A stretch of 55,651 bases of DNA from a virus, in IMG/VR virus record IMGVR_UViG_3300027749_000134, positions 1-55,651 of that record. One strand, 5' to 3'. This document shows, piece by piece, positions 10,102-52,900 of this stretch (position 1 is the first letter of the stretch; each line of letters opens with the position of its first letter). The notes under the pieces were generated by a model. That model searched no databases. It was not told the origin of the DNA and saw nothing but the letters and a program-made list of their open reading frames with translations. A program made the position numbers and the translations under genes.

Positions 10102-13100
10102 TTATCTACGCACGAAATGATAATCGCCATCTGGGCCATTATTGCTAAACAGTCCTAGACAATCATAGCCCAATGAATCCATATAAGCGATTACAGTATC
10201 TTTTAGTGGAGCACCTTTATTGTACTCTACTATCTGTAATTCTAATATAATGTGTTTGGCAGTTTTAATAGTTTCCTGTGCGCCTTTAAGTACATCCATT
10301 TCTGCGCCTTGCACATCCATTTTAATTAGATCAGGTGGTGGATATTTATTAAGGCTAACCACTGCATCGAGTGTAATAGTTTTAAGTTTTCTTACATATT
10401 TGTCACTGTACAGAGTTGCTGCTGCTGGTTGAATATCAGGATTTTCTCTGTAATAGCTATTGCCGCCAGGTGCTTCATTGTTTTGATAGAAGTCTACTTC
10501 TTTGCCGCTTTCATTGCTGAGTACACCAATGAAGTATTTTACACCAGCTTCCTGATATAAGAACTCGTGTACATCTGCTGCTTCAAATGCTACAACTTCT
10601 GCTTCAGGCCATATATTTCTAACTCTATCTGTCCAATGCAATACACATGCACCAATGTCATAGATGACCTTAGGTTGTACGCCACCTTCTTTTAGTTTAT
10701 CAAGGTATTCGATGTGTGCTGGAGGGAATGGATATGGATCACGTAGCTCTCTTAGAAATTGTTTAATATCAACAATAGTACCATTTGTTTCTATCACAGG
10801 TGTATTCTGATCAACGTTGAATGTAAAACTTCCAATATGTCTACATAATATTCCAGGATCTGCCCAAATAGTAAATCCGTTTTCTCCTGCCTTTCTACAG
10901 AAATCTACATCTTCGGATACAGTATCATTGATGCTTATAGCACTATGGTATTTAAATTGAGGATATCCTATTTTTCTAAATACTTCTCCCTTGATCAACG
11001 CACAGCCAAATCCACATCCTGCAACTTGTGTTAAGGGCCTACCTTTTAATTTTCCATAAGGCATATTAATCATACCACCTGTGGGAGTATGTTCGTATAT
11101 TTCTATAATATGTTCTCCAGGTTTACGTTGTATGTATATACCGCTAACAACATCTTTATCATGTGATAACATTCTTGCCAATGTATCAGGTGCAAATGCA
11201 ATATCACTATCTACCGCAAGTAGATAATCAAATCCATGTACCACCCAATCTGCAATTAAATTGCGTACTTGATCTATGTTATATCCATAGAAAAATTGAA
11301 ACATTGTTTCATAACCGTCTGGTATGATAAGATCGTAGATACTTTTAAAAGTATCTGGCTCAATATTTTTAGCTGTGGGTATTGCTATAAGTATCTTTTT
11401 TTTAGGTTGAATCATTTTCTGTACTATCTCATGTGCATTTTTATTTTGTTCTACTGCATTAACCTTATAATCATTTAAAGGACTTGCATCATTATAATTA
11501 TATACAATATCTTGTAAGCATTTTACCTGGTTAGGATCTGCTTGTTCTATTAATGCGTAAAATACGCTACCATCGCCACCGGCTTTGTACCAATTACCAT
11601 TACTATCTTTAAATGAACTATCATTGATATTGTTTAACAATGACTTTTTAAATGTTCTTAAATGTGTATAAGGTAATATCCAGTTAAAATGATGATCTCT
11701 ATAGGATTTATTTTGTTTAACTGCTTCAGGATAAGGTTGACTGATCAGTGGAATGTTATCAACCATGCTCCAGCAACTACCATAGGTAAATTCAGTGGTA
11801 CCGTCATAGATAGAATTGTAATAAGAGAATACTGTATTATCATTAATAAGACTGTCATCTCCGTCTAACAACATAACAATGGTATCATCTGCGACCATTG
11901 ATCTAATGTTTTGTATTTGATTTCTAACTGCGCCTAAGTTTTCTTTATTAGAGATAACAGTGAACTTACTTCTAATATCTTCTGGTAATGTTTTCAATGT
12001 TTCTATAATAACCTGTACAGTATTATCTGTACTAGCATCATCAATTAAGATATGTTCATAGTTATCGTAGTCCTGTACAGCCACACTGGTTATACAACGA
12101 GAAATATACTCAGCACAATTATAAAAAGGACTAACAACTACTATCTTTTGTTCATTGCCTGATTTATAATGTTCTAATTCGATAGTGTTAGTAAACCTGC
12201 GATTCCATATCTTATGTACTTTGTGATTAATCTTTGATACGCGACGGTATCCATCTTTAGATAGATATTTGCCCAGCCGCTGCGCCATTAATTGTTTCCA
12301 CTGTAGAGCAACACTATCCCATCCTGCTACATCTTTAACAATATTACAGTAGTATTGTTTTTGTTGATGTAGATATCTATTATGATAGGCTTGTATAGTC
12401 ATCTTTACAAATTTATTAATTTGTTCTTCACTATTGATATCAGGGAACAAGCCGTTAGGTTCTATAGCATAGTCAATATGATAACAAGCACCTTCTAGAG
12501 CAATTTCTTCCAATGCGCCAAATCTACAAGTAAGTATAGGAGTATTGTAGAGTAAACTTTCCAGTGATGATATACCAAATGTTTCAGGAAACGCAGCAGG
12601 GTAGATCATAAAACTTGCTGATGTAAGTATATCAGCAATTTCTCGTTGAGGAATAACTCCTGTGTATTCTATACCTAATTCTAAGTTACGTGGATCGGCC
12701 GCCATAATGCGCCAATCTTTTTCCTGTTGATCAGGTTCCGATGCTTGACTAAATCTATAATATCCGCCTATGATTTTTAATCTAGCACTGGGTATCATTG
12801 CTTTAACCTTGGGCCAAATATGATTCACTAATGGGATCATACCTTTAGTCACACTGGCGTTATAGACAAACAAGTTATGATCTTTAGCACCAATGTCAAC
12901 TTCTTTTCTATAATTACGAGCACCATTACGTGTAATAAACATCTTACGTTTAAGTACTTCAAAATTACGTCTACGTCCGTGATGGCAGTTAGCCACGTAG
13001 GTTAAGTGAAAATCGCTGAGTGTGAATATATCAGTGATGCGATCTGCTACCACAAGTTCTTCAATGATATTATCACCGAGACAAAATGTATCATGCATCC

Positions 13101-13473
13101 AAAGTATACGCATGGTAGCCTTGGATAGTATTCTATCATACAAGTTCATACTGTGGAATGGATATGCTCTACCATCGCCTAACTTTTCGTAGTCTTTAGG
13201 ATCAGTAAATGGTATTACAGTTCTTGAGCTTATAACAATATCAAAAATATAATCGTTGGCTAATTCATCAAGTGTACGATATTCAACACCTTGATAATTT
13301 CCAGGATGAGCATGATCTGTATTGCAGTTATTAAACACTGTCACATCAAATCCAATTTGGGCCAATTCATAGGCCATGAGTGTTACAGCACTTTCGCTGC
13401 CTCCCAATCCTTGATTGTCTATGGTATTACCATCATAGGGTATGCCAATAATATCTATAATAGCAAGTTTCAT
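10102..13473 (-). CDS. Four-domain fusion: GT4 glycosyltransferase, two GT-A/GT2-type domains and FkbM methyltransferase
   Basis: 1123 aa. Residues 1-405: GT-B fold of family GT4, with the donor-site motif FPETFGISSLES (295-306). Residues 443-680: GT2 domain with VVVSPFYNCAEYI (445-457), IDDAST (477-482) and DXD-type LDGDD (536-540). Residues 690-890: a second GT-A-like domain with IAIPTAKNIEPDTF, AVDSDIAF (753-760) and a conserved GCGFGCALI segment. Residues 935-1123: FkbM-type SAM methyltransferase with VIYDIGACVLHW (937-947) and LIKMDVQGAEMDVLKG (1049-1064). The protein would build and O-methylate a short glycan on either virion fibres or the host envelope. It sits between fibre genes and a nuclease, but unlike them has a consensus sigma-70 promoter and no Shine-Dalgarno sequence. 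Confidence 0.9.
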   Translation of the reverse strand: MKLAIIDIIGIPYDGNTIDNQGLGGSESAVTLMAYELAQIGFDVTVFNNCNTDHAHPGNYQGVEYRTLDELANDYIFDIVISSRTVIPFTDPKDYEKLGDGRAYPFHSMNLYDRILSKATMRILWMHDTFCLGDNIIEELVVADRITDIFTLSDFHLTYVANCHHGRRRNFEVLKRKMFITRNGARNYRKEVDIGAKDHNLFVYNASVTKGMIPLVNHIWPKVKAMIPSARLKIIGGYYRFSQASEPDQQEKDWRIMAADPRNLELGIEYTGVIPQREIADILTSASFMIYPAAFPETFGISSLESLLYNTPILTCRFGALEEIALEGACYHIDYAIEPNGLFPDINSEEQINKFVKMTIQAYHNRYLHQQKQYYCNIVKDVAGWDSVALQWKQLMAQRLGKYLSKDGYRRVSKINHKVHKIWNRRFTNTIELEHYKSGNEQKIVVVSPFYNCAEYISRCITSVAVQDYDNYEHILIDDASTDNTVQVIIETLKTLPEDIRSKFTVISNKENLGAVRNQIQNIRSMVADDTIVMLLDGDDSLINDNTVFSYYNSIYDGTTEFTYGSCWSMVDNIPLISQPYPEAVKQNKSYRDHHFNWILPYTHLRTFKKSLLNNINDSSFKDSNGNWYKAGGDGSVFYALIEQADPNQVKCLQDIVYNYNDASPLNDYKVNAVEQNKNAHEIVQKMIQPKKKILIAIPTAKNIEPDTFKSIYDLIIPDGYETMFQFFYGYNIDQVRNLIADWVVHGFDYLLAVDSDIAFAPDTLARMLSHDKDVVSGIYIQRKPGEHIIEIYEHTPTGGMINMPYGKLKGRPLTQVAGCGFGCALIKGEVFRKIGYPQFKYHSAISINDTVSEDVDFCRKAGENGFTIWADPGILCRHIGSFTFNVDQNTPVIETNGTIVDIKQFLRELRDPYPFPPAHIEYLDKLKEGGVQPKVIYDIGACVLHWTDRVRNIWPEAEVVAFEAADVHEFLYQEAGVKYFIGVLSNESGKEVDFYQNNEAPGGNSYYRENPDIQPAAATLYSDKYVRKLKTITLDAVVSLNKYPPPDLIKMDVQGAEMDVLKGAQETIKTAKHIILELQIVEYNKGAPLKDTVIAYMDSLGYDCLGLFSNNGPDGDYHFVRR

Positions 13474-13484
13474 ATATGCTATTA

Positions 13485-13512
13485 ATTATACACTAAATGA
13501 TAACAATGTCAA
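13485..13512 (-). promoter_or_regulatory. Consensus sigma-70 promoter for the glycosyltransferase fusion
   Basis: On the minus strand: TTGACA (13512-13507), 16-nt spacer, TATAAT (13490-13485), both hexamers matching the bacterial consensus exactly. The -10 ends 11 nt before the ATG, so the leader would be only a few nt. No late-type box is found here. Confidence 0.7.
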
Positions 13513-13523
13513 AGATCTTGATA

Positions 13524-14498
13524 CTAAAAAAACATTGAGGCGCTACCAACAGCAGCAAAGTTTGGGGTAAACTTATATATTCTGTATCCGTTTTCTATAC
13601 TAGTTGTGTAATTGCCTGTGATAGTAAATGGATGATTATATATTGCTGGCCACCAGAATATAGCAACACCGTCAGCGCTCCAAGTACCTTCACCGCCATA
13701 ATATGTACCCCAACCTCCACCTGCACCGTTGCCCGTATTACTACCGTAGGTTGATACAGCACTACCTCCAACGCCTCCTGCAGCAAAAGTTCCTGAATAT
13801 GATGAACCGTCAGCTATATTAACATAAAGCCCAGGACCAGGGGTGTTACCCACTGCGGCCCCACCGGCTCCGCCGCCTGCGCCCTGGGAGCTGCTGGATC
13901 CACCTCCACCATACCCTCCATAACCGCCAAAAATAGAACCGGGTCCATTATAATTTCCACCAGCACCGATACCATTACCTGAACCTGAGTTATCACTGCC
14001 AGCACCCCCGCCACTACCGCCAGAACCGCCACCACCGTTGACTCCGCCATTACCACCTGCGTAAGCCACCTTAGATCCTATAGGTGCGTAAGTAGAAAAA
14101 GACAAAACGGTGGAGCCGGGAGACCAACCTCCGTAATATGCTCCCGATCCTGCGGCGCCACCACCTAATTTTTGTCCCTGTGAGCTTCCACCAAAACCCC
14201 CATTACCTATTTGAAGTCCTACTGTCGCACTAATATTTGTAAGCATGGTAAAAGTACCTAATTGTAGTCCACCGCCACCGCCTCCACCAGGAGTACCACC
14301 GTAAGATGTGCCAGCACCGCCGTAGCCGCCACCACCGACTAACAAATAATTCATAACTGGTATTATGTTGTTGGGCCAATTACCCGAATATTTTGCTTGA
14401 ACTTGGTCCTTTGGGGTCCAAACGGTTCCCGAAGAAGCAATGGATACACTAGGATATAACGCAGAACCTGTTATAAGTTTTCCAATAAATTTACTCAT
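13524..14498 (-). CDS. Glycine-rich tail adhesin (324 aa)
   Basis: An N-terminal domain of about 55 residues (VWTPKDQVQAKYSGNWPNN) precedes the Gly-rich domain entry MNYLLVGGGGYGG. Residues 55-260 are Gly/Ser/Tyr-rich with many GGxGG runs and short strands between (LQIGNGG, VAYAGGNGG). The C-terminal 45 residues (FTITGNYTTSIENGYRIYKFTPN) form a folded tip-like segment. Gly-rich domains of this kind form polyglycine-II-like sandwiches at the tips of phage fibres (T4-like gp38-type adhesins) and determine receptor specificity. Paralogue of the next gene, from which it is separated by 6 nt. Confidence 0.8.
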   Translation of the reverse strand: MSKFIGKLITGSALYPSVSIASSGTVWTPKDQVQAKYSGNWPNNIIPVMNYLLVGGGGYGGAGTSYGGTPGGGGGGGLQLGTFTMLTNISATVGLQIGNGGFGGSSQGQKLGGGAAGSGAYYGGWSPGSTVLSFSTYAPIGSKVAYAGGNGGVNGGGGSGGSGGGAGSDNSGSGNGIGAGGNYNGPGSIFGGYGGYGGGGSSSSQGAGGGAGGAAVGNTPGPGLYVNIADGSSYSGTFAAGGVGGSAVSTYGSNTGNGAGGGWGTYYGGEGTWSADGVAIFWWPAIYNHPFTITGNYTTSIENGYRIYKFTPNFAAVGSASMFF

Positions 14499-14504
14499 AA
14501 TATA

Positions 14505-15374
14505 TTAATAGAAGTTGATTGTTCCATTTCCAGTCCAAATATAGGTTGTATATCCTGTGCTATATGGTGCCCCTCTGTACAAATAAAGGTTGGTAGCCTT
14601 TGCGATTGGAATATAATCCGGAACACGTATTATAACAACACCATTGCCGCCGGCGGCACCAGGGTAATACCCACCACCAACAGCAGCATCGTTATTCCCG
14701 CCACCGCCACCGCCAGTGTTTGGTGCCCCAGACGCCGAGTAATCAATTTGCTGATATCCTCTACTGAACCCACCGCCGCCTACGCCGCCTCGACCCACGC
14801 TGGTGTTCCAGGTCACGTAGGGGCTACCACCGCCACCACCAAAGTAAACCTGACCTCCGGAGACTTCACCAACTCCTAATAATGTTGCAAGTGCAGTTGA
14901 AATTATGGTAGTAGTAAGACCAGTCCCTCCATTACCACCAGAATCACCAGAAGTCTGACTCCCTAAGTTGATGTGGTTTGAACCATCACCATGGGCGGCA
15001 TAGTCAACGTTGCCACCGTTAGCCTGTTGTACATATGAATTAACGGTAACACCTGAAATTATACTAGGACTGCCGTTACTTGGTCCTCCGCTACCGCCAA
15101 GTCCAGCTGTAATATTATACAATCCCGGATATAAGATGGTACTAGTTGACAAAATGTTTCCTCCATTTCCACCAGGACCGTAATGTAAACCGGGATATGC
15201 AGTTGTGCCGCCGCCACCACCACCTATTAAAAATAGATCCGCAGGAAATTTAGTTGGCCAATTACCTGATTTTTTTGCATTGAATTCATCAGTGATATTA
15301 AAAAATGCATTAGTTGCCGAAATAGCAGCTACAGGTTTATTTGCACTAACAATTCTTCTGTAATAATTCGACAT
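14505..15374 (-). CDS. Glycine-rich tail adhesin, paralogue (289 aa)
   Basis: Same plan as the 324-aa gene: N-terminal segment with EFNAKKSGNWPTKFPADLFLIGGGGGG, a Gly/Asn/Ser-rich body (residues 50-240, with GGNGGN, GLGGSGG, GVGEVSGG) and a short C-terminal strand-rich cap (NLYLYRGAPYSTGYTTYIWTGNG). The shared NAK/QAKYSGNWP motif just before the Gly-rich start argues for duplication. It is translated from an ATG just after the preceding gene. Probably a host-range tip protein, alternative or complementary to its paralogue. Confidence 0.8.
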   Translation of the reverse strand: MSNYYRRIVSANKPVAAISATNAFFNITDEFNAKKSGNWPTKFPADLFLIGGGGGGTTAYPGLHYGPGGNGGNILSTSTILYPGLYNITAGLGGSGGPSNGSPSIISGVTVNSYVQQANGGNVDYAAHGDGSNHINLGSQTSGDSGGNGGTGLTTTIISTALATLLGVGEVSGGQVYFGGGGGSPYVTWNTSVGRGGVGGGGFSRGYQQIDYSASGAPNTGGGGGGNNDAAVGGGYYPGAAGGNGVVIIRVPDYIPIAKATNLYLYRGAPYSTGYTTYIWTGNGTINFY

Positions 15375-15770: not shown

Positions 15771-16052
15771 TTATCCTCCGAATATCATTGCCATGGCAAT
15801 GCCTTTACCTGTTGTGATGCCAGGATTACCTGCTGAACCTGTATATCCTTGATTACCTTGATAACCCTGACTACCAGTATATCCGCCTGCCTGTCCACGA
15901 CTACCTACAAAACCAACACTGCCGGTATATCCTCCAGCAGGGCCTGTACTGCCTACAAAACCAACGCTGCCTGTAAATCCTCCAGCAGGGCCACGACTAC
16001 CTGTAAAACCTACAAGATTTGATCCTAAAATTTGTTGTATACTTATTGTCAT
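15771..16052 (-). CDS. Collagen-like short fibre protein (93 aa)
   Basis: After a 14-residue head (MTISIQQILGSNLV), residues 15-80 are Gly-X-Y triplets of the type GFT-GSR-GPA, GYT-GSV-GFV, interrupted about every 15 residues by one extra Gly (GPAGGFTGS, GQAGGYTGS). The C-terminus is GKGIAMAMIFGG, a short hydrophobic tail often seen on small phage collagen-like proteins. It would form a thin trimeric stalk. The Tyr-Thr-Gly-Ser motif is shared with the 278-aa and the 1863+-aa proteins of this window. Confidence 0.75.
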   Translation of the reverse strand: MTISIQQILGSNLVGFTGSRGPAGGFTGSVGFVGSTGPAGGYTGSVGFVGSRGQAGGYTGSQGYQGNQGYTGSAGNPGITTGKGIAMAMIFGG

Positions 16053-19896: not shown

Positions 19897-20733
19897 TTAA
19901 ATTGGCTGGTATAATACCTGTACATACAAGTCTTCGCCCGGTTGTGCGCCGGTTCCTACAGATAAAACGTTAACTGTTAGGTAATCTCCCGTGGATAATG
20001 AGTAAGTAGTTGTGTTTGTTGCTGTAGTTGTTGCTTGTGCTTGAATGGTTTGTGAAAATAACGAAGTTCCATTTTTTAATAAATTTAAAGAAATAGGCAA
20101 ATCCGCAGAAGTTCTAACCCTAGGAGTTACAGATGTTATAATAGAGTTAGTAGGCGAATACCACCTTGCTGTACCTGTATATGTTACTAACTTTCCAGGT
20201 TGTTGCAATGTAATATTATTACCCCCAAGACTACCTGTGTATCCTATATAACCACGGGGTCCAGTAGTTGATGTCACTTGCCACGTTGTTCCATTGAATA
20301 CAAATTCAAATGTGGAACCCTTGAGATCTAAACTTATATCTTCGGTTAAATTTTCAATGGTATTACCATTTCTTAATACTGTAATTGGATATCCGTTGCT
20401 AAAATCATTACCATCTGTGATCTGTATATATGATCCTGTATATGCACCGCCGGGCAATGAAATACTAAATGATCCAAACTTATTATCTGCAATAATTCTA
20501 TCACCATCTCTGGCTGTATAATTAGTGGATGTACTAAACCATGGATTTGTAGCAGATCCAGTTAGTCCTGGCTCACCTTGACTACCAGTATAACCAACAC
20601 TACCTGTATATCCTATAGTAGTACTAATAGCTTTCCAAAATCCACTAGGACCACCGGTCCATACCCATGTACGGTCTCCAAAGGTAAAAACGTATCCGGT
20701 TGCGGTTGTTACTGGGAAATTAATAGCTGTCAT
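19897..20733 (-). CDS. Short collagen-like tail fibre protein (278 aa)
   Basis: Residues 1-40 (MTAINFPVTTATGYVFTFGDRTWVWTGGPSGFWKA) form the small 'tWxWdG..W' domain common at phage fibre N-termini. Residues 41-60 are a collagen-like stalk ([16 protein letters not shown]). Residues 62-155 form a beta-sandwich with RDGDRIIADNKFGSFSISLPGG, which resembles a domain also repeated in the 1863+-aa fibre. A second short stalk follows (GPRGYIGYTGSLGG), then a C-terminal beta domain (residues 175-278). No clear Shine-Dalgarno: AATAAATA sits 5 nt before the ATG, so expression may rely on read-through from the giant gene, whose stop is 22 nt upstream. Confidence 0.8.
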   Translation of the reverse strand: MTAINFPVTTATGYVFTFGDRTWVWTGGPSGFWKAISTTIGYTGSVGYTGSQGEPGLTGSATNPWFSTSTNYTARDGDRIIADNKFGSFSISLPGGAYTGSYIQITDGNDFSNGYPITVLRNGNTIENLTEDISLDLKGSTFEFVFNGTTWQVTSTTGPRGYIGYTGSLGGNNITLQQPGKLVTYTGTARWYSPTNSIITSVTPRVRTSADLPISLNLLKNGTSLFSQTIQAQATTTATNTTTYSLSTGDYLTVNVLSVGTGAQPGEDLYVQVLYQPI

Positions 20734-38049: not shown

Positions 38050-41000
38050 TTATTTAACCGAAGATGCTTTCTGGGGAATTGCGAAACCAGAATAATATGT
38101 ACTTGTTGAAGTAATTGAGTAACGTGCTACACCTTTGGTAATGCGTACTTCGTCTATATAACCATTAAAATATCCAACACCTGCTACACCAAATCCTATA
38201 CGTATAGTTGAATTAGTAAAGTTTTGTGTTATACTACCAGAATACGGATTACCTTCTTGTATTCCGTTTAAAAATAATACAAAAACATTATTTCTTCTAA
38301 CCAATGCTATATGATGCCAGAAATTTGTTGGCAACGGAGTTGTACCAGTAATATAAATTAAACCAGTTGTACTAAAATTTAATGTACCGGTGGCAGTTAA
38401 ATAAATGTCAAAACCAACATTAGCAAGATTTATTGTTCTCATATCAAATAATGATCTAACTGTAGCAGGTTGTAATTGTGTACCAACCCAAGTTGATACT
38501 GGCAATGCATAAACCCACATTTCTACAGTGAAGTCGGACACTCCTAATGCATAGGTAGCTGTAGATCCAGCTGGTGTTATACTAAGATAATCGGATATAC
38601 CATTGAAATAAAAACTTCCTGGATTATACTTAACCACTGAGGTAGATATTATAGGACCATCCTGCGGAGTAAGATTAGTTAGTGCAGTTTTATCAATCAA
38701 AGATGCTTGATTAAAATTCAATAATAAACTTGTAGAAGTACTTAGATCAACAGTGGTCAATGGTGCTAAAGGTGGGTTAAATGTATTTGAATATAACGCA
38801 CGTTTAACTATTCTAAAGTCTGAAATATAACCATTAAAATATGATGTAGCTGTTGGGCCATTTCTACCTATTACTAGTTGACCTGCTGAATAATTAGTGG
38901 TTGTGTTATATCCCAGTGTTGGAGAACCATTTTGGAATATAGATATTAATGGACCACTTCTAACCATGGCAATATGATTCCAAGTAAATGGAAGTATAGC
39001 ACGATTTGAATTAGGTGAAGTAGAATTATTTGTAGCTATAGAATAAAATCCAGATGTTGCTAGGTTCAAAGCTAATGAATCGGGTCGAAGAGTATTACCA
39101 TAATTCCCTGCAAGATCAAATACAGTCTGTGCAGCGGCCAATGAATTTACATAAAGCCACATTTCTATGGTAAAATCACCCCCAGTGTTATATGAAGATG
39201 AAACTGAATTTACTGTAGCTATGGCACTGGTACTATAATCTGTGCTAGCAGATACCCAACCTTGTGCATTATATGCTGCATCTGCTGCAATGGTAGTCCC
39301 ACCTGAATATGTTGCATTAGTAAATCCTGCTGGTGGAGAATAAGTATTGGCTGTATAATATCTAAATGTACCAGTTGTCGATGAACCAAAGCTGGCACCG
39401 CTCATAATTATAAAACGTAAATTTCCAGTTCCGGGTATAGTACTTCCTGCGGTGCTTACAGGATCTAAATACCATACAGCATTTCTACCAATCCATACTT
39501 TATTTGTTGATGCATTATAGGCTATTCGTATTATATCACCGCTGGAAAATGGGGCTGTAAGTGTAGTTCCACCAGTCATTCCCCCATAGCCGGTGCCATC
39601 ATACGCATATATTGATGGCACATTACTATATCCGCCGGTGCTAGTATCTCGTGCTAATCCAAATAAAGGAAAATCACCACTGTTATATACTACTTCAAAA
39701 TAGTAACTGCCTGAATCACGTAGAGCAGTACTTCTTGCACCGCCTGAACTACCTTGAATATTGTTAAAAGAAAAACTAAAAATACCAGTCGCAGCAGATT
39801 GAGCAGCACTAATATTTGTTATACTTAAACCTGATCCACTAAGTTGTAATGCGGTTGATGTACTAGTTAATGTATTTGTATATATAAAATCTGATGTACC
39901 ATTAAACAATGCACTACCACCTAATGTTGCAGGATTATATGCAGATCCTAATGGGAATGGTGAGAATCTTTGTATCTTAGGTGTACTAGTTGCTGTGCCT
40001 GTACTAAGAGCAATTGTAGATGTACTACTATCAACAAATTGATTGCTGTTCATAGTTAGTAAAACTGTATTAGCACTGGCAGGTAATGGACTAGTTGGTA
40101 CACTAAATGATGGTAATACGTTAGGATAAGTTCCAGTGACAAACACAGGTGTAACAGCAGGAGTTATAGAAACTGCATTTATAGAGCTATCTACAATTGT
40201 TGCATCTGTGGGTAATAATGTTAATAAAACTGTATTTGTAATTGAAGTTAAACTAGTTGTAGGCGGTGTAAAGTTAGAAGTATATATTGCTGTACCTATA
40301 ACCAAACGTACATTGCTAAGATAACCATTAAAACAATTACTAGCAACATCCCACTTCCGCCCAATATACAATGTACTTGTGGTGATTGTTGCTACAGCAA
40401 CAGATCCAGGAGAAACTGCAATTTTAACTCCATTTAAATATAAATTATGTTGAACACCGTCATACACACCTGCAACATGACTCCAACGATATAATGGTAA
40501 TTGAGTAGATGAAAGTGCTCCAATCATACCAGCATTGTAAAAACCAAAAAATAAATTAGATCCGCCGTCGCCCGGCGAGGAAGTACAGGTACATAGAATA
40601 AAATGTGCATTGTTGTTATATATAGCTGTACCAAAAATATATTGACCAGCTGTAACGTTTGGAAATACCCAACACTCCAAAGTGTATGGTGTTAAATATA
40701 AACCTAAAGCAGGTAAACTATACGATCTTGAAATACTTAAACTTTGATTAGTTCCATCAAAATACAAACTCTTCTGATTCAAATTTGTAGGATCACGACT
40801 ATAAAGTGCTGTCCCTGATACGGCTCTTAAATTACTAATAAATCCATTATAGTATTTGGCACCATACGCACCTATTACCATACCCTGAGTTTGTGTGGTA
40901 TTAGTAAGTGTGCTAATAGTTGAAGCTGTGGTAATTTGATAAATTCCATTAACAAAAATTGTAGGTGTTCCTGCATTAACTACCCACGCCACGTGATTCC

Positions 41001-44000
41001 ATGAACTAGTTGATAAGAAATTAGTTGCTGTTATAAAATAATTTGTATTAGCAGAATCTCTCCAATATAGCATTGGTCTATTTTGAGAATCAATGCCCAC
41101 ACTCCATGCTAGCTGTCCACCTGTAGGTGATGCATCACCTAATATAACCGATGATGTGCTGGCAGTTTGAAATCCGTTTGGATATAACCATGATTCAACA
41201 GTGAACGTTTTATTTGCTCCAAAGAATGTATTTTGTGCAAACGCTGTTCCTGTGGAAGTAAAACTAAAATAATCTGATGTACCGTTAAAAGCTGTGCTCC
41301 ACAACGAACCATATGGACTAAATGATCCTTGTGTAAATGTAAGAGATCCTGTATTAAGATTAGAAGTAAGGTAGTTATAACTTGTATCTATCACAGCTCT
41401 ATTATTAATAGTTGATGATGTGATTGTTCCAGATACATAAGTTGTTGTATTAAATAGAGTTGATGTAGAAAAACTTAAAGTTCCTGTAGCAGTAAAAATA
41501 TAAGTTTTATAACCACCGGTATTAATAAATGTTGCGGTTCCCGGAGTATAAGTTGCATCTTGTATTACACTATTATATCGAATGACAACTACACCAGAGC
41601 TACCAGTGGTACCAGAAGTAGATGTTGAGCCACCAAGTCCGCCACCACCTGTACCATTGGACGGTATTGTATAAGGAGTATTTGTATTAACATAAACAAC
41701 ACCTCCAACATTGCTGACCACATTAGCATATATGCTTGAATCATATGTACTTTGTGGAACCAATAACAATGATGTATAACTTGCTGTTAATATTGCCTGT
41801 GTATTACTACCGCCATATGGATTGGCAGCTTGTGTGGTTTGTAATGAACTTGTAGCAGTGGTAAAGTTGCCAGTATATACTGCTAGACCTTTAACTATAC
41901 GTGCATTAGTTATGTAGCCAGTGAATGGTTGTGTACCTGCACTACTTGCCCCAATGGATATAGTATTTGTTGCAGCATAAAGGCTGGGTGTACCAATTGA
42001 ATATGTTACAACAGAAGTACCATTTAAGTATAAAGTAAATGTATTACTATTTCTAACAAACGCAATATGATTCCATTGATTTAACGGTATAACTGTACTC
42101 GATATACTATCTGTTAGTACGGCCGTGCCATCGGTAGATAATAAAAATCTAGCATATCCATTTGTATCATTGCTGGTGATAACTGCCCAGGACAGAGTTG
42201 TACCGCCAGTAGATCCGGACCATTGGCAAAAAAATATGTTTTGTGCTGTCCAGGCTACAGATCTAAAAACCCAAGCTTCAGCAGTAAAATTATTTGTACC
42301 AAATTGGAATGTTGTACTGGTTGGAACAGTCAAGTAACTACTACCATTAAAACTCAAACTACCGGGTATACCATTACCATAACTAATAGCACCGGCTGTG
42401 GCTCCATTACCAGAACCGCCGCCGGCAAAATAAACAGATGTTCCTACAACTTGTCCAACGCCTGCATATGCCGCTATAGCCGCTGTAATTATAGTAGATG
42501 ATGAACCTATACCACCAGTGCCTCCAACAGTGGTAGGGCTCGCAACGGTTCCAGTAGTACCGGTGGTGCCAGCACCGCCACCACCACCGCCAGGATATGC
42601 AGTAATGTTAATATTAATGTTAATAAACCCATAAGTAACAGGTGCACCGGCATTTCCTTGAACTACAATGCCGCTGCCACCAATAGTTTGCCCGGTACCG
42701 CCACCGCCGCTGCCGCCCGCGCTACCTGCTTGGCCATAGGTTGCACCGCCACCACCACCATAGGCCACGATATTTGTATTACTAAAACTAATACTTGAAT
42801 TAGTACCACTACTACCATTATTTGGACTTGCACCACCAGTACCACCAGATCCTCCTGAGCCCACAGTAATAGTATATGTGGTGGTGTTTAATGTATATGT
42901 ACCATCACTATTAAGAGTACCAGGTAGTGGATACCCAAGGGCTGCTAACAAACCACCACCACCACCACCACCACCACTAATACCGGCAACAGAATATGAT
43001 ATTACAGAGGCTGCTGATGGAACATTTGAATTAAATGTAACTCCGCTAGGATTTGCTGGAGTAAGAGGACTACTACTACTATCAGTTAGATATGCTCCGC
43101 TACTTGCTACATTTAATAATAATTTTGTATTAGTAACATCGGCCATGGGTATACCCGGTATAAACCCACTTGGGAAAAGTGTAGTAGTATACGCCGCAGT
43201 TCCATTTATTACCCTAACACCAGTGATGTATCCAGTAAACGGATCGTTATAGCGGCTGTTGACCGATTCATCACCTATACTAAACGGATAGCCTGAATTT
43301 CCAATAGTATCTGTAATTTGATTACCACTATAGCTATAAAATACCCCGTTGAGCCAAAGATTATGATTTCCGTTATAGCGAACATAAGCAACATGATACC
43401 AAGTAAACAACAGTATCCCGCCGGCGGGGGCGGCGGCGGGTTGGGAATACACGCCGCCGGTTCTTCTAGTTACTATATAGAGACCACTGGAGTACATAAT
43501 AAGACTGTATCCGTCGGTGTCACCACCACTCTGCCCACCATTGGAAAATACCATTTTGCCATGACTATTTGGGCCAGTAAATGAAGTTGGATATATCCAC
43601 ATTTCTACTGTGAAATCACCAGTTAGCAGGAATGCCGATGCACTATACGGAACTGTTATGCTATTACCACCACTAAAACTTAAACTACCACCCGTCCATG
43701 GTGATCCAGACAGAGACGGTAACGTTGTATTTTCCCATGTGACACCACCGTTATTGGTTACTGGGAAAGCATTTGTACTTGAGTCAAACAATTTAGTGAG
43801 ATCTGTATTAAACAACAATAATACTGTGGTATTGGCTCCAGCTGACAGAGGCGTGGCTGGGGTAAACGTAGTATTGTATAATGCCTGTCCTTTGGTTATA
43901 CGAACATTGGTGATATATCCAGTCCATCTGTATGATGAGCCAAGGCCACTCTGCCCAATATATAGTGCCGAAGATTTAGAGACGTTAGCTGGTGTTAAAT

Positions 44001-47000
44001 CAGCACTACCGATGTCTTGAACGTTAGTAACATCTACACCTCCTACCCATATTTTTCCAGTGGTGCCAGATCTTGTGGCTGCTATGTGATACCAGGTATT
44101 GCCAACTGTTCTTCCTTGTCCTACTATATTATTTCCAGTTATGCCCCACAATGGGATATCATTGACGCCTACCAAGGTGCCATAACCAACAAATCTCCAT
44201 GTATTGTTATAGTATTGCAGTTCCCAAAAACGATTTTCAGCAGAGGTCATATTACTTAAAATTGCGTATTGACCAGTGTCAGTGGGCATGGTGCCTGGCC
44301 AGTATACCCAGGCTTCTACGGTAAAATCACCAGAGAATGACCATGCCGATTGATAGGTAGCGGCAATGGTTAAATATTGACCATTCCCAGCAAAACTTAC
44401 AGCACCAGATATTGTTCCTGCACCACTAACTGAAATAGTAGATGTATTGCCGCCTCCGCCGCCTCCGCCACCTGCAACTACCAAATAGTCAATGGTTACT
44501 GCAGATCCAGTACTTCCATACACCGGTAGTTTATATGTAGTTGGTTGATTAGCTGATAATAATAGTGTGGTATTTTTAAAATATGTATCACTGGCACCTG
44601 TAGGATATCTATCTGCATCACCTAAGTTTGCAGGATAGCGGAATACAACAATACCACTGCCACCAGCGCCACCAGCGCCTCGCCAGTCAAACGCACCAGC
44701 AATTTGACTGCCACCACCTCCACCACCTCCTGTATTTGTTAGGCCTGCAATTGCAGGAAGAGTACCTATCCCATCTTTATATCCTGATCCGTCACCACCA
44801 CCGCCTAATCCACCGGGGCCTCCGGTTCTACCAGCATTAGCGGGATAATCGCCACCACCACCACCGCCACCATAAGCTGTAGAAACACCTGTATAATTAA
44901 AGTAAGCACCATCGCCGCCGCGCCCGCCTTCCCACCCTACAAAGCCTTGGCTAGCAACTTCTATTAAACATAGTTGTCCTGGACTAGCATATCCGCCACC
45001 GCCGCCAGAACCGCCGCCGCTAGTTCCATTGATACTTCCTCTACCACCGTTGTAGCCTTGTCCAGGAATACCTGCACCACCTGGAGCATCATATCCGCCA
45101 CCGCCCCCACTTCCGCCTATTTGTCCTGAGCTAGCCTGGGCACCTCCACCACCACCACCGCCTACTGCTCTTACTAAATCACTTTGTATATTTGTAGAAC
45201 TAAATGCATAGAACGGAGACATCATCGATGATGTTGTTACTGCCGTTCCAGATGTTGTAAACGTAACATTATTATTAGAAAAATCAGTGGTTATTGAACT
45301 GTTATTTTGACTAACCAACGTCAATAAAACAGTTTGAGTAGTTATGGCAGCAATTGTACTTCCTGATATTACATTTATACTTTGGCTTGTTGTTAAATTT
45401 TGTGTAGGAGGAGTAAAATTTCTTGTGTATACGGCGGTGCCTTTTACTATACGTACATTTGTAATAAACCCTGAAAATTTACTCGCACCAGCGGCATCAC
45501 TGCCAATTACAAGGGGAACGGCAGGATCGTCCCATAATGTAAAACTAGTGGTGATCGATGCTGTTGAAACACCATTTGCCCATGTTGAAAATGTATTTCC
45601 AAAACGTGTAGCGGCCACATGAGACCAAGCATTGGCAATAACAGGAGTTGTACCCAATGATGTGACAAGCCACCCACTACCGCCGCCATTATTCATAGAA
45701 TATAATTTAACAAGATTATTTTCTAACAATAGAATAAATGCACCTGCACTAGAAACAATACTTGCATTCTTTGTTATAATTTGTTGTTGTGCTATATTCA
45801 CCGCAGTAGGATATATCCAACATTCAATAGTCCAATCTCCTGAGCCAAATGTAAAGTCTGCTGAACTTGGTATTGTTAGATATTGTGTACTACCATTAAA
45901 ACTTAAACTACCACCGGTGCTGAATGGAGTAGCAGCATTGTATGTAACGCTGCCAACATTGGTGATATTAGTATTTCTTAGAGAACTATCATTTAAATAT
46001 GCACCAGAAGATGCTACATTTAATAATAATGATGTATATGTAATGTTAGTTACTGGATTAGTATATACAGTTAACGGCGTAGATGAAGGAACAAAAGTAC
46101 CTGTATAAACTGCCACACCATTGACCAAACGTAAATTACTTATATATCCAGCATAAGTTAGATATTGAGCGCCACCTGCTATGGATATATTAGTAGTAGT
46201 AAAAGTTATTGCATTTGAATAGTTGTAGGTAAGGCTATCAGGTACACCATTGATCCATAAATTAAAATAATTTGATTTTCTTGTTAGTGCTATATGTGTC
46301 CATTTATATGCAGTAATTGTTCCATTGCTAAGAAAGTATTGTGTACCGGGTGGATTCACAGACAATGAATATCCTTGTCCAAACCCAAGTTTATAATTAG
46401 GATCTAAATAAAAGTCCCAGCTTCCGGTAGGTACATCAGGATTTCTTGTATCAATCAACGTGCGATTATAATTTGCACTTGTTTTTTCAGGTCCTGCAGT
46501 GGGATAAATCCACATCTCAATGGTAAAATCACTAGAGCCAAAATTAAATGATGAATTAGATGCTCTTAGTTTAGTATTAAAGAAATATCCCGAATAATAT
46601 GAAAATGTAGTAGATGTTGGATAGAATAAACTATCGCTGCCATTTCCACCGTTTAATCCCGCTGATTGATTTGTTCCTGTGAGAATTGCAGCAGTGCTAC
46701 CACCAGCACCTACCACTACGTTCCAAGTTGTTCCAGAAGTTATATACCCTGTTCCAGCAGGAACTGGATTTGGATAATATCCTGTATAATTACTTAATGT
46801 AGAAAATCCTGTTGGAGGAGCATAGATATTTTCATTACCTGCACGAAATAAACCGTTTAATGTTCCACCTGCTGCGGCACCAGAAAACATTATTAGTCTT
46901 ATAGCATTGGTTCCTGTAAACCCTGTTCCACTTACAGAATTTGGATCAAGATACCAGGTATTATTTTTACCAAAAAATACCTGTGCGGGATTTGCATAGC

Positions 47001-47706
47001 ATTGATATGCAATTTGCAAGGTATCACCTGCAACAAAATTTCCTAATGCTGTTCCACCGGTTGTACCACCAAATCCTGTACCACCAACAAGGTATATACA
47101 TGGAACATTAGTATAACCACTCAATGGTACACCATCTCTAATTAATCCAACAAGTACATCGGCACGCGGTAGTGAGCGTATATATATTTCAAAATAAAAT
47201 GCTCTATTTCCCTGAGCATCAGCTTCGGGCAAAGGCATACTTCTTGCGCCGCCGCTGGCATTTTGTACATTACGCCAATCAAATAGAAAATTACCAGTTG
47301 CTCCTGTAAAATCAGTAACATTAGTACCAGTAATCCAACCACCTGCAACAGCAGCAACAGAAGATGTTGTTGCTGCAATATACAACGGGCTTGGAACTAC
47401 CCTAGATACTGGAGTTAATTGCCCAGTAAGTATTCCTCCAGCACCGCCTCCAGCGGCACCTGCCTGTCCGTTAAAAGAAGAACCACCGGCACCACCACCA
47501 CCAACTGCAAACCACTCTAGTGGGTATACAGTGGAAGTAACTGTGAATATACCCGATGAGGTAAAAATATGGGCAATATACGTTGTGCCATTATAAGTAT
47601 AGGAAGTAATTGTACCACCACGAGCATATGTACTAGTAGTTACATTAGCCGCCGTAGCAGTTGATACATAACGTTGTCTGCGAATTATACCTAAATCAAA
47701 TGGCAT
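38050..47706 (-). CDS. Giant LamG/SPRY/Gly-rich adhesin, paralogue (3218 aa)
   Basis: Head MPFDLGIIRRQRY followed by HIFTSSGIFTVTS parallels the 5757-aa protein. The layout is more mixed: an early Gly-rich patch, then an SPRY-like domain (about residues 115-330: SGGARSMPLPEADAQGNRAFYFEIYI, VLVGLIRDG, LQIAY......FFGKNNTWYL); then about nine LamG domains marked by GYITNVRIVKG-type motifs, interspersed with three Gly-rich blocks (around residues 860-1010, 1080 and 1590-1750) and a second SPRY-like insert (about 2680-2860: SGGARSTALRDSGSYYFEVVYN). The last LamG domain (YFNGYIDEVRITKGVARYS) matches the last domain of the larger paralogue. It starts 10 nt after the preceding stop without a clear ribosome site, so translation is probably coupled. 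Confidence 0.9.
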   Translation of the reverse strand: MPFDLGIIRRQRYVSTATAANVTTSTYARGGTITSYTYNGTTYIAHIFTSSGIFTVTSTVYPLEWFAVGGGGAGGSSFNGQAGAAGGGAGGILTGQLTPVSRVVPSPLYIAATTSSVAAVAGGWITGTNVTDFTGATGNFLFDWRNVQNASGGARSMPLPEADAQGNRAFYFEIYIRSLPRADVLVGLIRDGVPLSGYTNVPCIYLVGGTGFGGTTGGTALGNFVAGDTLQIAYQCYANPAQVFFGKNNTWYLDPNSVSGTGFTGTNAIRLIMFSGAAAGGTLNGLFRAGNENIYAPPTGFSTLSNYTGYYPNPVPAGTGYITSGTTWNVVVGAGGSTAAILTGTNQSAGLNGGNGSDSLFYPTSTTFSYYSGYFFNTKLRASNSSFNFGSSDFTIEMWIYPTAGPEKTSANYNRTLIDTRNPDVPTGSWDFYLDPNYKLGFGQGYSLSVNPPGTQYFLSNGTITAYKWTHIALTRKSNYFNLWINGVPDSLTYNYSNAITFTTTNISIAGGAQYLTYAGYISNLRLVNGVAVYTGTFVPSSTPLTVYTNPVTNITYTSLLLNVASSGAYLNDSSLRNTNITNVGSVTYNAATPFSTGGSLSFNGSTQYLTIPSSADFTFGSGDWTIECWIYPTAVNIAQQQIITKNASIVSSAGAFILLLENNLVKLYSMNNGGGSGWLVTSLGTTPVIANAWSHVAATRFGNTFSTWANGVSTASITTSFTLWDDPAVPLVIGSDAAGASKFSGFITNVRIVKGTAVYTRNFTPPTQNLTTSQSINVISGSTIAAITTQTVLLTLVSQNNSSITTDFSNNNVTFTTSGTAVTTSSMMSPFYAFSSTNIQSDLVRAVGGGGGGGAQASSGQIGGSGGGGGYDAPGGAGIPGQGYNGGRGSINGTSGGGSGGGGGYASPGQLCLIEVASQGFVGWEGGRGGDGAYFNYTGVSTAYGGGGGGGDYPANAGRTGGPGGLGGGGDGSGYKDGIGTLPAIAGLTNTGGGGGGGSQIAGAFDWRGAGGAGGSGIVVFRYPANLGDADRYPTGASDTYFKNTTLLLSANQPTTYKLPVYGSTGSAVTIDYLVVAGGGGGGGGNTSTISVSGAGTISGAVSFAGNGQYLTIAATYQSAWSFSGDFTVEAWVYWPGTMPTDTGQYAILSNMTSAENRFWELQYYNNTWRFVGYGTLVGVNDIPLWGITGNNIVGQGRTVGNTWYHIAATRSGTTGKIWVGGVDVTNVQDIGSADLTPANVSKSSALYIGQSGLGSSYRWTGYITNVRITKGQALYNTTFTPATPLSAGANTTVLLLFNTDLTKLFDSSTNAFPVTNNGGVTWENTTLPSLSGSPWTGGSLSFSGGNSITVPYSASAFLLTGDFTVEMWIYPTSFTGPNSHGKMVFSNGGQSGGDTDGYSLIMYSSGLYIVTRRTGGVYSQPAAAPAGGILLFTWYHVAYVRYNGNHNLWLNGVFYSYSGNQITDTIGNSGYPFSIGDESVNSRYNDPFTGYITGVRVINGTAAYTTTLFPSGFIPGIPMADVTNTKLLLNVASSGAYLTDSSSSPLTPANPSGVTFNSNVPSAASVISYSVAGISGGGGGGGGLLAALGYPLPGTLNSDGTYTLNTTTYTITVGSGGSGGTGGASPNNGSSGTNSSISFSNTNIVAYGGGGGATYGQAGSAGGSGGGGTGQTIGGSGIVVQGNAGAPVTYGFINININITAYPGGGGGGAGTTGTTGTVASPTTVGGTGGIGSSSTIITAAIAAYAGVGQVVGTSVYFAGGGSGNGATAGAISYGNGIPGSLSFNGSSYLTVPTSTTFQFGTNNFTAEAWVFRSVAWTAQNIFFCQWSGSTGGTTLSWAVITSNDTNGYARFLLSTDGTAVLTDSISSTVIPLNQWNHIAFVRNSNTFTLYLNGTSVVTYSIGTPSLYAATNTISIGASSAGTQPFTGYITNARIVKGLAVYTGNFTTATSSLQTTQAANPYGGSNTQAILTASYTSLLLVPQSTYDSSIYANVVSNVGGVVYVNTNTPYTIPSNGTGGGGLGGSTSTSGTTGSSGVVVIRYNSVIQDATYTPGTATFINTGGYKTYIFTATGTLSFSTSTLFNTTTYVSGTITSSTINNRAVIDTSYNYLTSNLNTGSLTFTQGSFSPYGSLWSTAFNGTSDYFSFTSTGTAFAQNTFFGANKTFTVESWLYPNGFQTASTSSVILGDASPTGGQLAWSVGIDSQNRPMLYWRDSANTNYFITATNFLSTSSWNHVAWVVNAGTPTIFVNGIYQITTASTISTLTNTTQTQGMVIGAYGAKYYNGFISNLRAVSGTALYSRDPTNLNQKSLYFDGTNQSLSISRSYSLPALGLYLTPYTLECWVFPNVTAGQYIFGTAIYNNNAHFILCTCTSSPGDGGSNLFFGFYNAGMIGALSSTQLPLYRWSHVAGVYDGVQHNLYLNGVKIAVSPGSVAVATITTSTLYIGRKWDVASNCFNGYLSNVRLVIGTAIYTSNFTPPTTSLTSITNTVLLTLLPTDATIVDSSINAVSITPAVTPVFVTGTYPNVLPSFSVPTSPLPASANTVLLTMNSNQFVDSSTSTIALSTGTATSTPKIQRFSPFPLGSAYNPATLGGSALFNGTSDFIYTNTLTSTSTALQLSGSGLSITNISAAQSAATGIFSFSFNNIQGSSGGARSTALRDSGSYYFEVVYNSGDFPLFGLARDTSTGGYSNVPSIYAYDGTGYGGMTGGTTLTAPFSSGDIIRIAYNASTNKVWIGRNAVWYLDPVSTAGSTIPGTGNLRFIIMSGASFGSSTTGTFRYYTANTYSPPAGFTNATYSGGTTIAADAAYNAQGWVSASTDYSTSAIATVNSVSSSYNTGGDFTIEMWLYVNSLAAAQTVFDLAGNYGNTLRPDSLALNLATSGFYSIATNNSTSPNSNRAILPFTWNHIAMVRSGPLISIFQNGSPTLGYNTTTNYSAGQLVIGRNGPTATSYFNGYISDFRIVKRALYSNTFNPPLAPLTTVDLSTSTSLLLNFNQASLIDKTALTNLTPQDGPIISTSVVKYNPGSFYFNGISDYLSITPAGSTATYALGVSDFTVEMWVYALPVSTWVGTQLQPATVRSLFDMRTINLANVGFDIYLTATGTLNFSTTGLIYITGTTPLPTNFWHHIALVRRNNVFVLFLNGIQEGNPYSGSITQNFTNSTIRIGFGVAGVGYFNGYIDEVRITKGVARYSITSTSTYYSGFAIPQKASSVK

Positions 47707-49981: not shown

Positions 49982-49989
49982 TATTTATG
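49982..49989 (-). promoter_or_regulatory. Late-type promoter box CATAAATA
   Basis: Minus-strand CATAAATA overlapping the stop codon region of the upstream fibre gene, 32 nt before the ATG of the 254-aa gene. Confidence 0.55.
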
Positions 49990-52900
49990 GTAGGTACCAA
50001 CCAGCAGCGCCAGTTATGACAGAATAGTAAGAACTAACACCGGATGCACCTGTATCACCTTTACTGCCCACAAAACCGTTATTTCCTGATGGACCCATTG
50101 CACCCATTGAACCAGTGAATCCATTAGATGCTGTAGCTGGCCCAACCCATGTCCATTCATTAACAGCAATTTTTATCAAAGAACCAATGGCATATTGCTG
50201 ATTTAATATAGGAAAATCAGTATAATGCAGCGTAACCGCACCAGAATATGGAGATATTGTTACAGGTCCTACACCAAATTGTTGAATATCAACTCGTTGT
50301 CCAATTGCAAAAGTAACATCAGCATCACGTGGAATAACTAATGTAGTTCCCACGGCATTGTTTATTTCAATCAAATATCCAGCATCACCGGACACTAAAG
50401 TATATGTAGTACCTGTTTGTACATTGAATGCTTGTACAGCATTAAATCCACCAATACTTCCAGTATATCCAAAACTTCCAGTATATCCAGCTGATCCAAT
50501 ATAGCCAGTGCTACCAGTGTAGCCTTGGCCACCAGTTGGTACAACAAATAACCATTCATTAGAATTAGTTTTTACCAATGACCCTAGACTATATTGAGCA
50601 TTCAGTATAGGATAATCTGTGGATACAATTGTAACACCGGAATCACCTACTACTGTAATACCACCTATACCAATCTGTTCTATATCTAAACGACTACCTA
50701 TTGGAAAGTTTACTGAACTTTCCACAGGTACTGTTAGTGTAATAGGAAGTGTGTTATTTAATTTTAATAGATTTCCAGCATCAGTTAATGCCAATGTATA
50801 AGTTGATGATGTAATGGTATTAAATGCTTGTACCGCACTGCTGAAATTACCCTGACTACCAGTATAACCAAAGCTACCACCAAACCCGGCGCCTGCACTA
50901 CCAGTATATCCTGTTTGTAATACAAAGTTTAATACAGCCTGTCCAAAGTTTCCAGAGTTAGAAACAGTAGATGTAGTTCCACTGATTGTAACTGTTCCGA
51001 GTTGTACAGTGGCAGCAGTTCCTGTACTGCCTGTATATCCAATATCACCGGTTCTACCAAAAGATATAGCCAATGCATCTACTGCTGATGGAATTTGAGC
51101 ACCAGCAACATATACTGAATTTAATGTATAGTATCCTGAATTGTTGACAACAGATAATATAGCAAATACATTGGTTAAAGTATTAAGATTAGAATTATTC
51201 TTAACCTCTAAATATCCTTTTACTGAATTTGAACTAGCACCCATGGAACTAAACCAGGATGTAAGATCTGCTCCATATATATCATTAGCATCCATATATA
51301 TGGCAGTAACTGAAGCCACTGATGTACTATTATATCTAATAGCACCATTTACCAATGAAGTTAACGTAGTAGTGGTTGACTCAAACGCATATTGAAAACC
51401 TGGCTTTTGTCCTTGACTACCAGTATATCCCCTACTACCCCAATATCCTGTAGCTCCTATACTACCTATCCATCCTTGACTACCAACATAACCGATAGAT
51501 CCCATTGGCCCAGTATCACCTAAATATCCCTGAGGACCTTGGATACCTTGACTACCTGTATAGCCAATGATTAATCCAACATCTAACCATGATCCACCAT
51601 TCCATACCCACATATGACCTGTGCTTGTGGTAACATATGTATCATTAAATGCACCTGTATAGCTACTTGGCCAACCTGGCAAATCTAAATATGTTGATGT
51701 TGTTCCTACGATAACAACGCTGGTACCAGTTGCACCTTGACTACCTGTATAGCCAAGTTGTCCTTGGAATCCGCTGGCTGATATTTCAATCCATTGAACA
51801 CTATCACCATCATTGGTCCATACAAGTTCAATACCATAATTAGTATTAAACCAACGGTCGCCGGGTACTGGGAATGGTGGAGCATCGGGAGAATAAGTAT
51901 AAGAACTTTCACCCATGATACCTTGTACACCCTGGATACCTTGTACACCCTGGATACCTTGAATACCTTGAACATTGGCATCATTACCCTGAATACCTTG
52001 TAATCCCTGAATACCTTGGATACCTTGTATACCTTGTATACCTTGGCTACCATCTTGACCTATATATCCAGCTGTACCTTGTATACCTTGGCTACCTGTA
52101 TAACCAATAAATGATCCAGCATCTGTCCAAGCAGTACCGTCCCAGACCCATAAATGACCATTACTTTGAACTATATATCCATCACCGATAGAACCTGTAT
52201 AGGTCATCGGAGTTGGAGGTGTTTGATAACCAGGTAATAAATTATATGTTGAGGTACTACCTTTAATTACAACGCTAGTACCAGCATCACCTTTGCTACC
52301 TGAATATCCTACACTACCGCCATAACCCTGTACACCTTGAATACCCTGTATACCCTGTACACCTTGACCAGTAAGACCCTGTACACCTTGTATACCTTGA
52401 ATACCCTGATAGCCCTGTGTACCTTGTAATCCCTGTGTACCTTGAACACCTTGGCTACCAGTATAACCACGTGGTCCCTGATCACCTGTAGTACCTTGAC
52501 TACCGGTATAACCTTGGCTACCGGTATATGCTCTACTACCAGTATAACCTACACTACCAGTAAATCCAACTCCACGTTCCTGACCACTTATGAATAGTTG
52601 TCCTGTAACGTAAAATGCTCCTGCAACATTTAAATCGCCGCCAATGCCAACGCCACCAACAACAGTTAATGCACCATTGGTACTGGTTGTAGAACTGGTA
52701 GCAGAATATATTGCCACTCCAGTTTTATTCATGGTCATTACATGAGTAGCAGTAGTGGCACCAAAGTCAGTAGTTACACCTGGTAATGCAGTTCCGTCTG
52801 TATAGAATTCAATATTTGTATTAGTGTTAGCATTGGCAATGACTAAATTTTGGCCCTTGTTGATGAGATATCCATCATTTGCGTTTGTTATTCCAAAATC

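Follow-up and report, generated by a model that had tools for sequence, protein, structure and literature searches.

A modular glycosyltransferase–methyltransferase fusion in a phage fibre cluster as a candidate assembly line for an O-methylated glycan

The viral DNA of IMG/VR record IMGVR_UViG_3300027749_000134 (positions 1 to 55,651; this whole stretch of 55,651 nucleotides is called the window) is, judged by its relatives, a fragment of a T4-like phage. Its minus strand carries at 10102-13473 a single unbroken open reading frame (ORF) of 1123 amino acids plus stop, in which four catalytic domains follow one another: a GT4 glycosyltransferase (GT) of GT-B fold, a GT2a domain of GT-A fold, a divergent second GT-A domain termed GT2b, and a C-terminal FkbM methyltransferase. 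A sequence-only reading of the window had proposed this order of three glycosyltransferases and an FkbM enzyme in one chain of 1123 residues, which domain profiles and structure prediction bear out; its coordinates for the gene were exact, and the strand, which it did not give, is minus. The fusion (also called the module here) has the following parts, with a swapped segment and a promoter described further below.

10102..13473, minus strand: entire fusion gene, GT4-GT2a-GT2b-FkbM (domain profiles; model with a predicted local distance difference test score, pLDDT, of 83)
12274..13473, minus strand: GT4-type domain (GT-B fold), residues 1-400, with GGSE 24-27, H127, K210 and EX7E E297/E305 (PF00534, GT-B structure matches)
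11419..12156, minus strand: GT2a domain (GT-A fold), residues 440-685, with D479, D537-G-D539-D540 and D634 (PF00535)
10804..11406, minus strand: GT2b domain (second GT-A), residues 690-890, with D755xD757, S853-E854-D855 and H879 (phrog_1574, model and fold search)
10105..10761, minus strand: FkbM methyltransferase, residues 905-1123, with DxG 939-941, E964, D1053, G1056 and E1058 (PF05050, TIGR01444)
10324..10836, minus strand: segment swapped among close relatives, about residues 880-1050, with two deep allele types (identity profile, allele tree)
13485..13512, minus strand: sigma70-type promoter TTGACA-N16-TATAAT, 0 mismatches, ending 11 nucleotides before the ATG

The GT4 domain matches PF00534 and PF13692 at residues 208-340 (36.0 and 32.5 bits against curated cut-offs of 26.4 and 27), GT2a matches PF00535 at residues 446-582 (79.9 bits against 23.3), and the C-terminal domain, with its S-adenosylmethionine (SAM)-binding motif, belongs to the FkbM methyltransferases by PF05050 at residues 939-1104 (58 bits against 22.7) and by TIGR01444 (64.4 bits against 37.7). 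No GT2-type Pfam model scores above its cut-off for GT2b, the best being PF13632 with 17.6 bits against 27, and the domain is therefore filed not as GT2 but as a GT-A transferase of the phrog_1574, A197-like kind, with a match to phrog_1574 at 5e-24. Its fold, its DXD motif and a catalytic acidic residue place it in GT-A, the DxD being invariant and the SED nearly so. Modelled alone, GT2b gives a confident GT-A fold (pLDDT 87, predicted template modelling score, pTM, 0.86), for which a fold search returns A197 of Sulfolobus turreted icosahedral virus (STIV; 9.8e-11), LH3 and COLGALT1 and, lower down, polypeptide GalNAc-transferases. The full-length model has a mean pLDDT of 83 but a pTM of 0.54, so that the single domains can be trusted and their relative arrangement cannot; its top matches in the PDB are heparosan synthase 2 and the chondroitin polymerase K4CP. 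No segment of transmembrane-level hydrophobicity is seen in the fusion, and a soluble chain is predicted.

A scan of IMG/VR gave at least 415 stretches with genes for relatives of the fusion, the best 80 of which were retained, and a profile-based scan of the same collection yields 495 stretches. The relatives are all metagenomic, their contigs may be fragments, and locus counts include close relatives (not dereplicated). About 75 fetched loci hold all four domains in one unbroken chain, with identities of 57-100%; in dereplicated alignments, too, the fusion stays whole down to 57%. The sequence-only reading had allowed for two ways of being wrong, an assembly join of separate genes and the loss of key active-site residues. 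The former is ruled out, since the same four-domain chain recurs in many independent contigs, and the residues are invariant or nearly so. Among 77 wide-family sequences, the GGSE, H127, K210 and EX7E (E297/E305) of GT4 (74-77 sequences aligned), the D479, DGDD (D537/D539/D540) and D634 of GT2a and the DxD of GT2b are invariant where aligned, with E854/D855/H879 of GT2b nearly so, and the SAM-site residues DxG/E964/D1053/E1058 of FkbM are conserved in about 51 close-family sequences. The ratio of nonsynonymous to synonymous substitution rates (dN/dS) is 0.03-0.11 in each of the four domains where dS is unsaturated, a range by which all four are under strong purifying selection; a dead enzyme is ruled out by these ratios together with active-site conservation.

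None of 50,697 phage records covers 80% or more of the fusion, which fits the earlier statement that no characterised phage enzyme with this domain order was known. Unannotated entries exist, among them UniProt A0A6J5T3W3, a metagenomic phage protein that is a full-length relative at 55% identity; with full-length relatives in UniProt, databases already contain sequences of this type. No account of the fusion or of its modularity was found in the literature searched. An assignment to a host was rejected: the sole match in a genome collection is a 12-kb contig in a gammaproteobacterial metagenome-assembled genome, and its phage-like collagen neighbour means that the match may be phage contamination.

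Architectures in the wider family were assigned with one hidden Markov model per domain, some labels being affected by contig ends.

75 loci: GT4-GT2a-GT2b-FkbM
43 loci: GT4-GT2a split from GT2b-MT24
15 loci: GT4-GT2a-GT2b (some cut by contig ends)
14 loci: GT4-GT4-GT2a-GT2b (some cut)
7 loci: GT4-GT2a split from GT2b (some cut)
5 loci: GT4-GT4-GT2a-GT2b-FkbM
4 loci: second FkbM ORF behind the fusion (one, L087, is the remainder of a frame-shifted copy)
1 locus: GT4-GT4-GT2a-GT2b with a separate MT24
1 locus: GT4 split from GT4-GT2a-GT2b-FkbM
1 locus: FkbM between GT2a and GT2b (L210, one short contig)

MT24, which is Methyltransf_24/TylF-like, takes the place of FkbM and belongs to another methyltransferase family. 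TylF-type enzymes methylate sugars, and the occurrence of two methyltransferase families in the final position speaks for O-methylation of a sugar as the capping step. Split points are mostly overlaps of stop and start codons by four nucleotides. Mapped onto a GT-region tree, which was built quickly and is weakly rooted at depth, the ten architectures imply no fewer than 17 changes; for the label GT4-GT2a-GT2b-FkbM by itself, well-supported branches require at least seven. Read from these arrangements, the family is modular: the order GT4-(GT4)-GT2a-GT2b-(methyltransferase) is kept while modules are split, fused, doubled, lost and replaced, and FkbM is repeatedly lost or gained, was moved once, or is replaced by the TylF-like methyltransferase. 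In one lineage an O-carbamoyltransferase of the NodU/CmcH type (L125, 6051-7874, minus strand) lies divergent from an FkbM-less version of the fusion. Between two close relatives, L005 and L037, DNA identity is about 78-88% over most of the GT region, 60-65% in residues of about 880-1050 and then 84-89%, and a tree of the FkbM segment constrained to the clade seen in the GT region fails the approximately unbiased test (p 3.9e-5); by these comparisons, close relatives exchange FkbM alleles through recombination.

The promoter of the fusion sits in the 50-nucleotide gap between it and the gene 13524-14498, and a motif scan finds no other perfect sigma70-type site upstream of the tested genes of the window. 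A few dozen freshwater relatives retain the promoter despite diverged spacer sequence, and a similar sigma70-type arrangement is present at the exonuclease gene 1073-1774. The T4-late motif TATAAATA is found at the nuclease gene 9252-10070 (23 nucleotides upstream of its start) and at the fibre gene 17597-19822. The private sigma70-type promoter, set against the T4-late motifs of these neighbours, suggests that the module is probably transcribed on its own, early and almost leaderless.

The setting in a fibre cluster, part of the sequence-only reading, is confirmed by neighbours that include collagen repeats, nine LamG stretches and Gly_rich_2 domains, the last at 14505-15374 and elsewhere.

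13524..14498, minus strand: Gly-rich (30% Gly) putative fibre or adhesin protein directly upstream of the fusion (composition)
14505..15374, minus strand: Gly_rich_2 protein of the fibre cluster (PF21722)
15771..16052, minus strand: short collagen-like protein with 18 Gly-X-Y (GXY) triplets, Thr commonest in Y; candidate acceptor
19897..20733, minus strand: fibre protein with a short GXY stretch and a proximal tail fibre family match (phrog_972)
38050..47706, minus strand: 3218-residue protein with nine LamG (ConA-like) stretches and Gly-rich domains (PF13385, PF21722)
49985..55576, minus strand: collagen-repeat fibre protein with 134 GXY triplets; candidate acceptor (PF01391, tail fibre PHROGs)

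Four large module-carrying contigs (118, 202, 364 and 383 kb) encode the T4-type capsid protein gp23. In the 364-kb contig, no collagen-like ORF was found farther than about 28 kb from the module; in the 202-kb contig most are at about 21 kb or less, and a divergently oriented collagen protein of 236 triplets is 99 bp from the module. Among 58 loci with sufficient flank, a collagen-like ORF is present within 8 kb at 37 and a collagen, LamG or Gly-rich ORF at 49. Relatives of GT2b that occur on their own adjoin baseplate, capsid/tail or structural genes in other viruses.

In two jumbo-phage lineages, genes for cupin, HldE-C-like, HldE-N-like and HldD-like proteins come directly after the fusion with overlapping starts (L049, 8348-10670; also L102). 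HldE and HldD models are the best matches for these genes, yet score below their equivalog cut-offs. GmhA was not found with this ADP-heptose-type cassette; a complete ADP-heptose route was therefore rejected, and the cassette would rely on heptose phosphates supplied by the host. The literature search returned no publication on phage-encoded ADP-heptose glycosylation.

The closest characterised precedent for the fusion is A064R of Paramecium bursaria chlorella virus 1 (PBCV-1), a chlorovirus protein of 638 residues made of two GTs followed by a methyltransferase; this third domain adds an O-methyl group to the rhamnose at the end of the capsid glycan (PMC9614988). Like the phage fusion, A064R joins successive GTs and a C-terminal class-I methyltransferase in one viral chain, and it is expressed early (PMC9614988, PMC7826918). 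With at least two GTs and a methyltransferase in one chain, the phage protein has the domain make-up of an A064R-like viral glycan synthase. A111/114R of PBCV-1 similarly holds GT-GT-GT in one chain and serves the virus's own virion protein (PMC9614988, PMC7826918). The phage fusion differs from A064R in its GT families and their order, in belonging to a bacterial virus and in having modules that are split and swapped; the likeness is one of design. For GT2b the closest solved structure is STIV A197 (PDB 2c0n), a GT-A enzyme of an archaeal virus, by profile (6.9e-6) as well as by fold. A197 is an essential viral GT thought to glycosylate capsid protein (PMC10551542) and is unlike the fusion in being a single domain, at about 19% identity. 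In the collagen glycosyltransferases LH3 and COLGALT1 the GT-A fold is near that of GT2b, and their substrate is collagen repeats, which are frequent around the module; these enzymes, with mimivirus L230 grouped alongside, are unlike the fusion in their hydroxylysine targets, their pairing with a hydroxylase and an identity of 11-15%. The glycan of BclA, from the Bacillus spore, is O-methylated. BclA is a collagen-like fibre with oligosaccharides on its repeat region (a reference title in PMC9614988; PMC8968730) and serves as an analogy only, being a bacterial spore protein with separate enzymes. Pelagimyophages, T4-like aquatic phages, carry GTs among the fibre genes of their host recognition clusters, where GT8 is the most represented family; the excerpted text of that study describes no comparable fusion and takes the enzymes as modifiers of lipopolysaccharide (LPS) (PMC7029224). 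Few bacteriophages are known to have glycosylated virions, mycobacteriophages among them (cited in PMC12619734).

The building of a glycan by successive sugar transfer and its O-methyl capping by one predicted soluble protein, as the sequence-only reading proposed, is well supported by the component domains. On balance, with confidence little above even, the fusion would be a soluble, virus-encoded assembly line that makes an O-methylated oligosaccharide, with fibre or structural proteins of the virion as its most likely carriers. In the cytoplasm of the infected cell, the three transferases would add successive sugars from nucleotide sugars, GT2b being the likeliest protein-directed initiating transferase and GT2a and GT4 elongating, and the methyltransferase would then O-methylate the terminal sugar to leave a capped tri- or larger oligosaccharide. 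Less surely, the glycan would be attached to Ser/Thr of the phage's fibres or of its other virion proteins, a choice of acceptor favoured on circumstantial grounds by the position of the gene, the fold neighbours of GT2b, the settings of GT2b relatives and the lack of GtrA or membrane parts. Exchange of methyltransferase alleles and modules would change the outer sugar coat of the virion. A more specific form of this proposal is tentative and rather unlikely to hold in full: the order and set of modules, with one or two GT4 domains, GT2a, GT2b and interchangeable methyl- or other capping enzymes, may determine the capped oligosaccharide on collagen-like virion fibres, with a logic like that of polyketide synthases, and recombination may diversify the coat as it does antigen loci. 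If true, swapped modules and methyltransferase alleles would let phages vary their sugar coat.

Several points weigh against an acceptor on the virion. The fold likeness of GT2b identifies neither donor nor acceptor, and fibre genes of T4-like phages cluster regardless of the module, so that its proximity to them is weak evidence. Thr-rich GXY triplets are uninformative as a glycosylation signature, since Thr in Y, at 31.6%, is common in bacterial collagens generally (PMC8968730). A hydroxylation-dependent collagen scheme was rejected as a general rule: a 2-oxoglutarate (2OG)-Fe(II) oxygenase lies just upstream of the fusion at one locus (L055, 2985-4118) with similar ORFs at few others, and such a hydroxylase was found in 1 of 18 records, so that these enzymes are not regular partners and a general hydroxylysine-type scheme is not indicated. 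The sigma70-type promoter by the start codon, an arrangement shared with the exonuclease gene, fits early modification of the host as well, and the pelagiphage authors favour LPS modification for the GTs of host recognition clusters (PMC7029224). In that case an O-methylated oligosaccharide would be made early on LPS, O-antigen or a capsule precursor and serve superinfection exclusion; this is the foremost and a serious rival reading, though less likely than not. The ADP-heptose-like genes adjoining the fusion in some jumbo contigs would suit such a role, heptose being typical of the LPS core. The criteria of a Gtr-type O-antigen conversion cassette do not describe the locus, as there is no GtrA-type protein (PF04138) in 13 records and no transmembrane-like segment in the fusion; the module sits among virion genes, and the fold neighbours of GT2b are largely protein-acceptor enzymes. 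The phages look lytic and large, for which lasting serotype conversion would presumably gain little, and early expression is also seen for the chlorovirus GTs that build the capsid glycan (PMC9614988).

The PDB structures that best match the full-length model raise the alternative that the tandem GT-A pair polymerises an alternating polysaccharide, in the manner of heparosan and chondroitin synthases, as a free or attached capsule-like polymer. These matches reflect a general likeness of GT-A tandems, while GT2b alone fits A197, LH3 and COLGALT1 better; a methyltransferase with one or two GT4 domains suits a short capped glycan better, and GT2b occurs singly in other phages, all of which makes a polymerase improbable. 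Sugars could also be added to and methylated on hypermodified bases of phage DNA for nuclease evasion, a role known for some phage GTs (cited in PMC12619734) and compatible with an early-type promoter. In three contigs with the module (202, 364 and 383 kb), no hydroxymethylase of the thymidylate-synthase family, which usually carries out the first step, was found, the gene lies in the fibre cluster and not among replication genes, and the fold neighbours of GT2b are of another kind; DNA modification is thus very improbable.

The fusion, a widespread, single-gene and natively modular enzyme across hundreds of IMG/VR sequences from large aquatic phages, would make phage virion glycosylation directly testable. 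Its naturally rearranged modules may help to relate the order of GT fusions to product structure, and it is a candidate route for varying the sugar coat of fibres or for blocking rivals at the host surface.

Other observations concern the neighbourhood of the fusion and its relatives. The fibre cluster of the window also holds a 5757-residue ORF with 26% Ser+Thr (20756-38029, minus strand), and the nuclease gene at 9252-10070 (minus strand), which adjoins the fusion in many relatives, encodes a DNA/RNA nuclease of the Endonuclease_NS type with an N-terminal signal-like stretch. A pirin gene comes soon after a methyltransferase-less fusion in the fibre cluster at two loci (L068, 8056-8727; L070, 4098-4769), and at L297, the locus of a GT2b relative in Synechococcus phage S-SCSM2R, a 2OG-Fe(II) oxygenase adjoins. 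An ORF near the fusion at L077 (12757-13428, minus strand) has, by eye, TPSTGT repeats followed by a segment that looks like an intein/Hint type. In several contigs a protein that by eye resembles periplasmic TctC-type binding proteins is encoded soon after the fusion (L034, 10079-11041). The 364-kb contig, G001, holds an array of 24 tRNA genes (L279, 4208-11964) and, at another place (L284, position 10196), a tRNA with the anticodon CTA, called tRNA-Pyl by ARAGORN and a possible amber suppressor.

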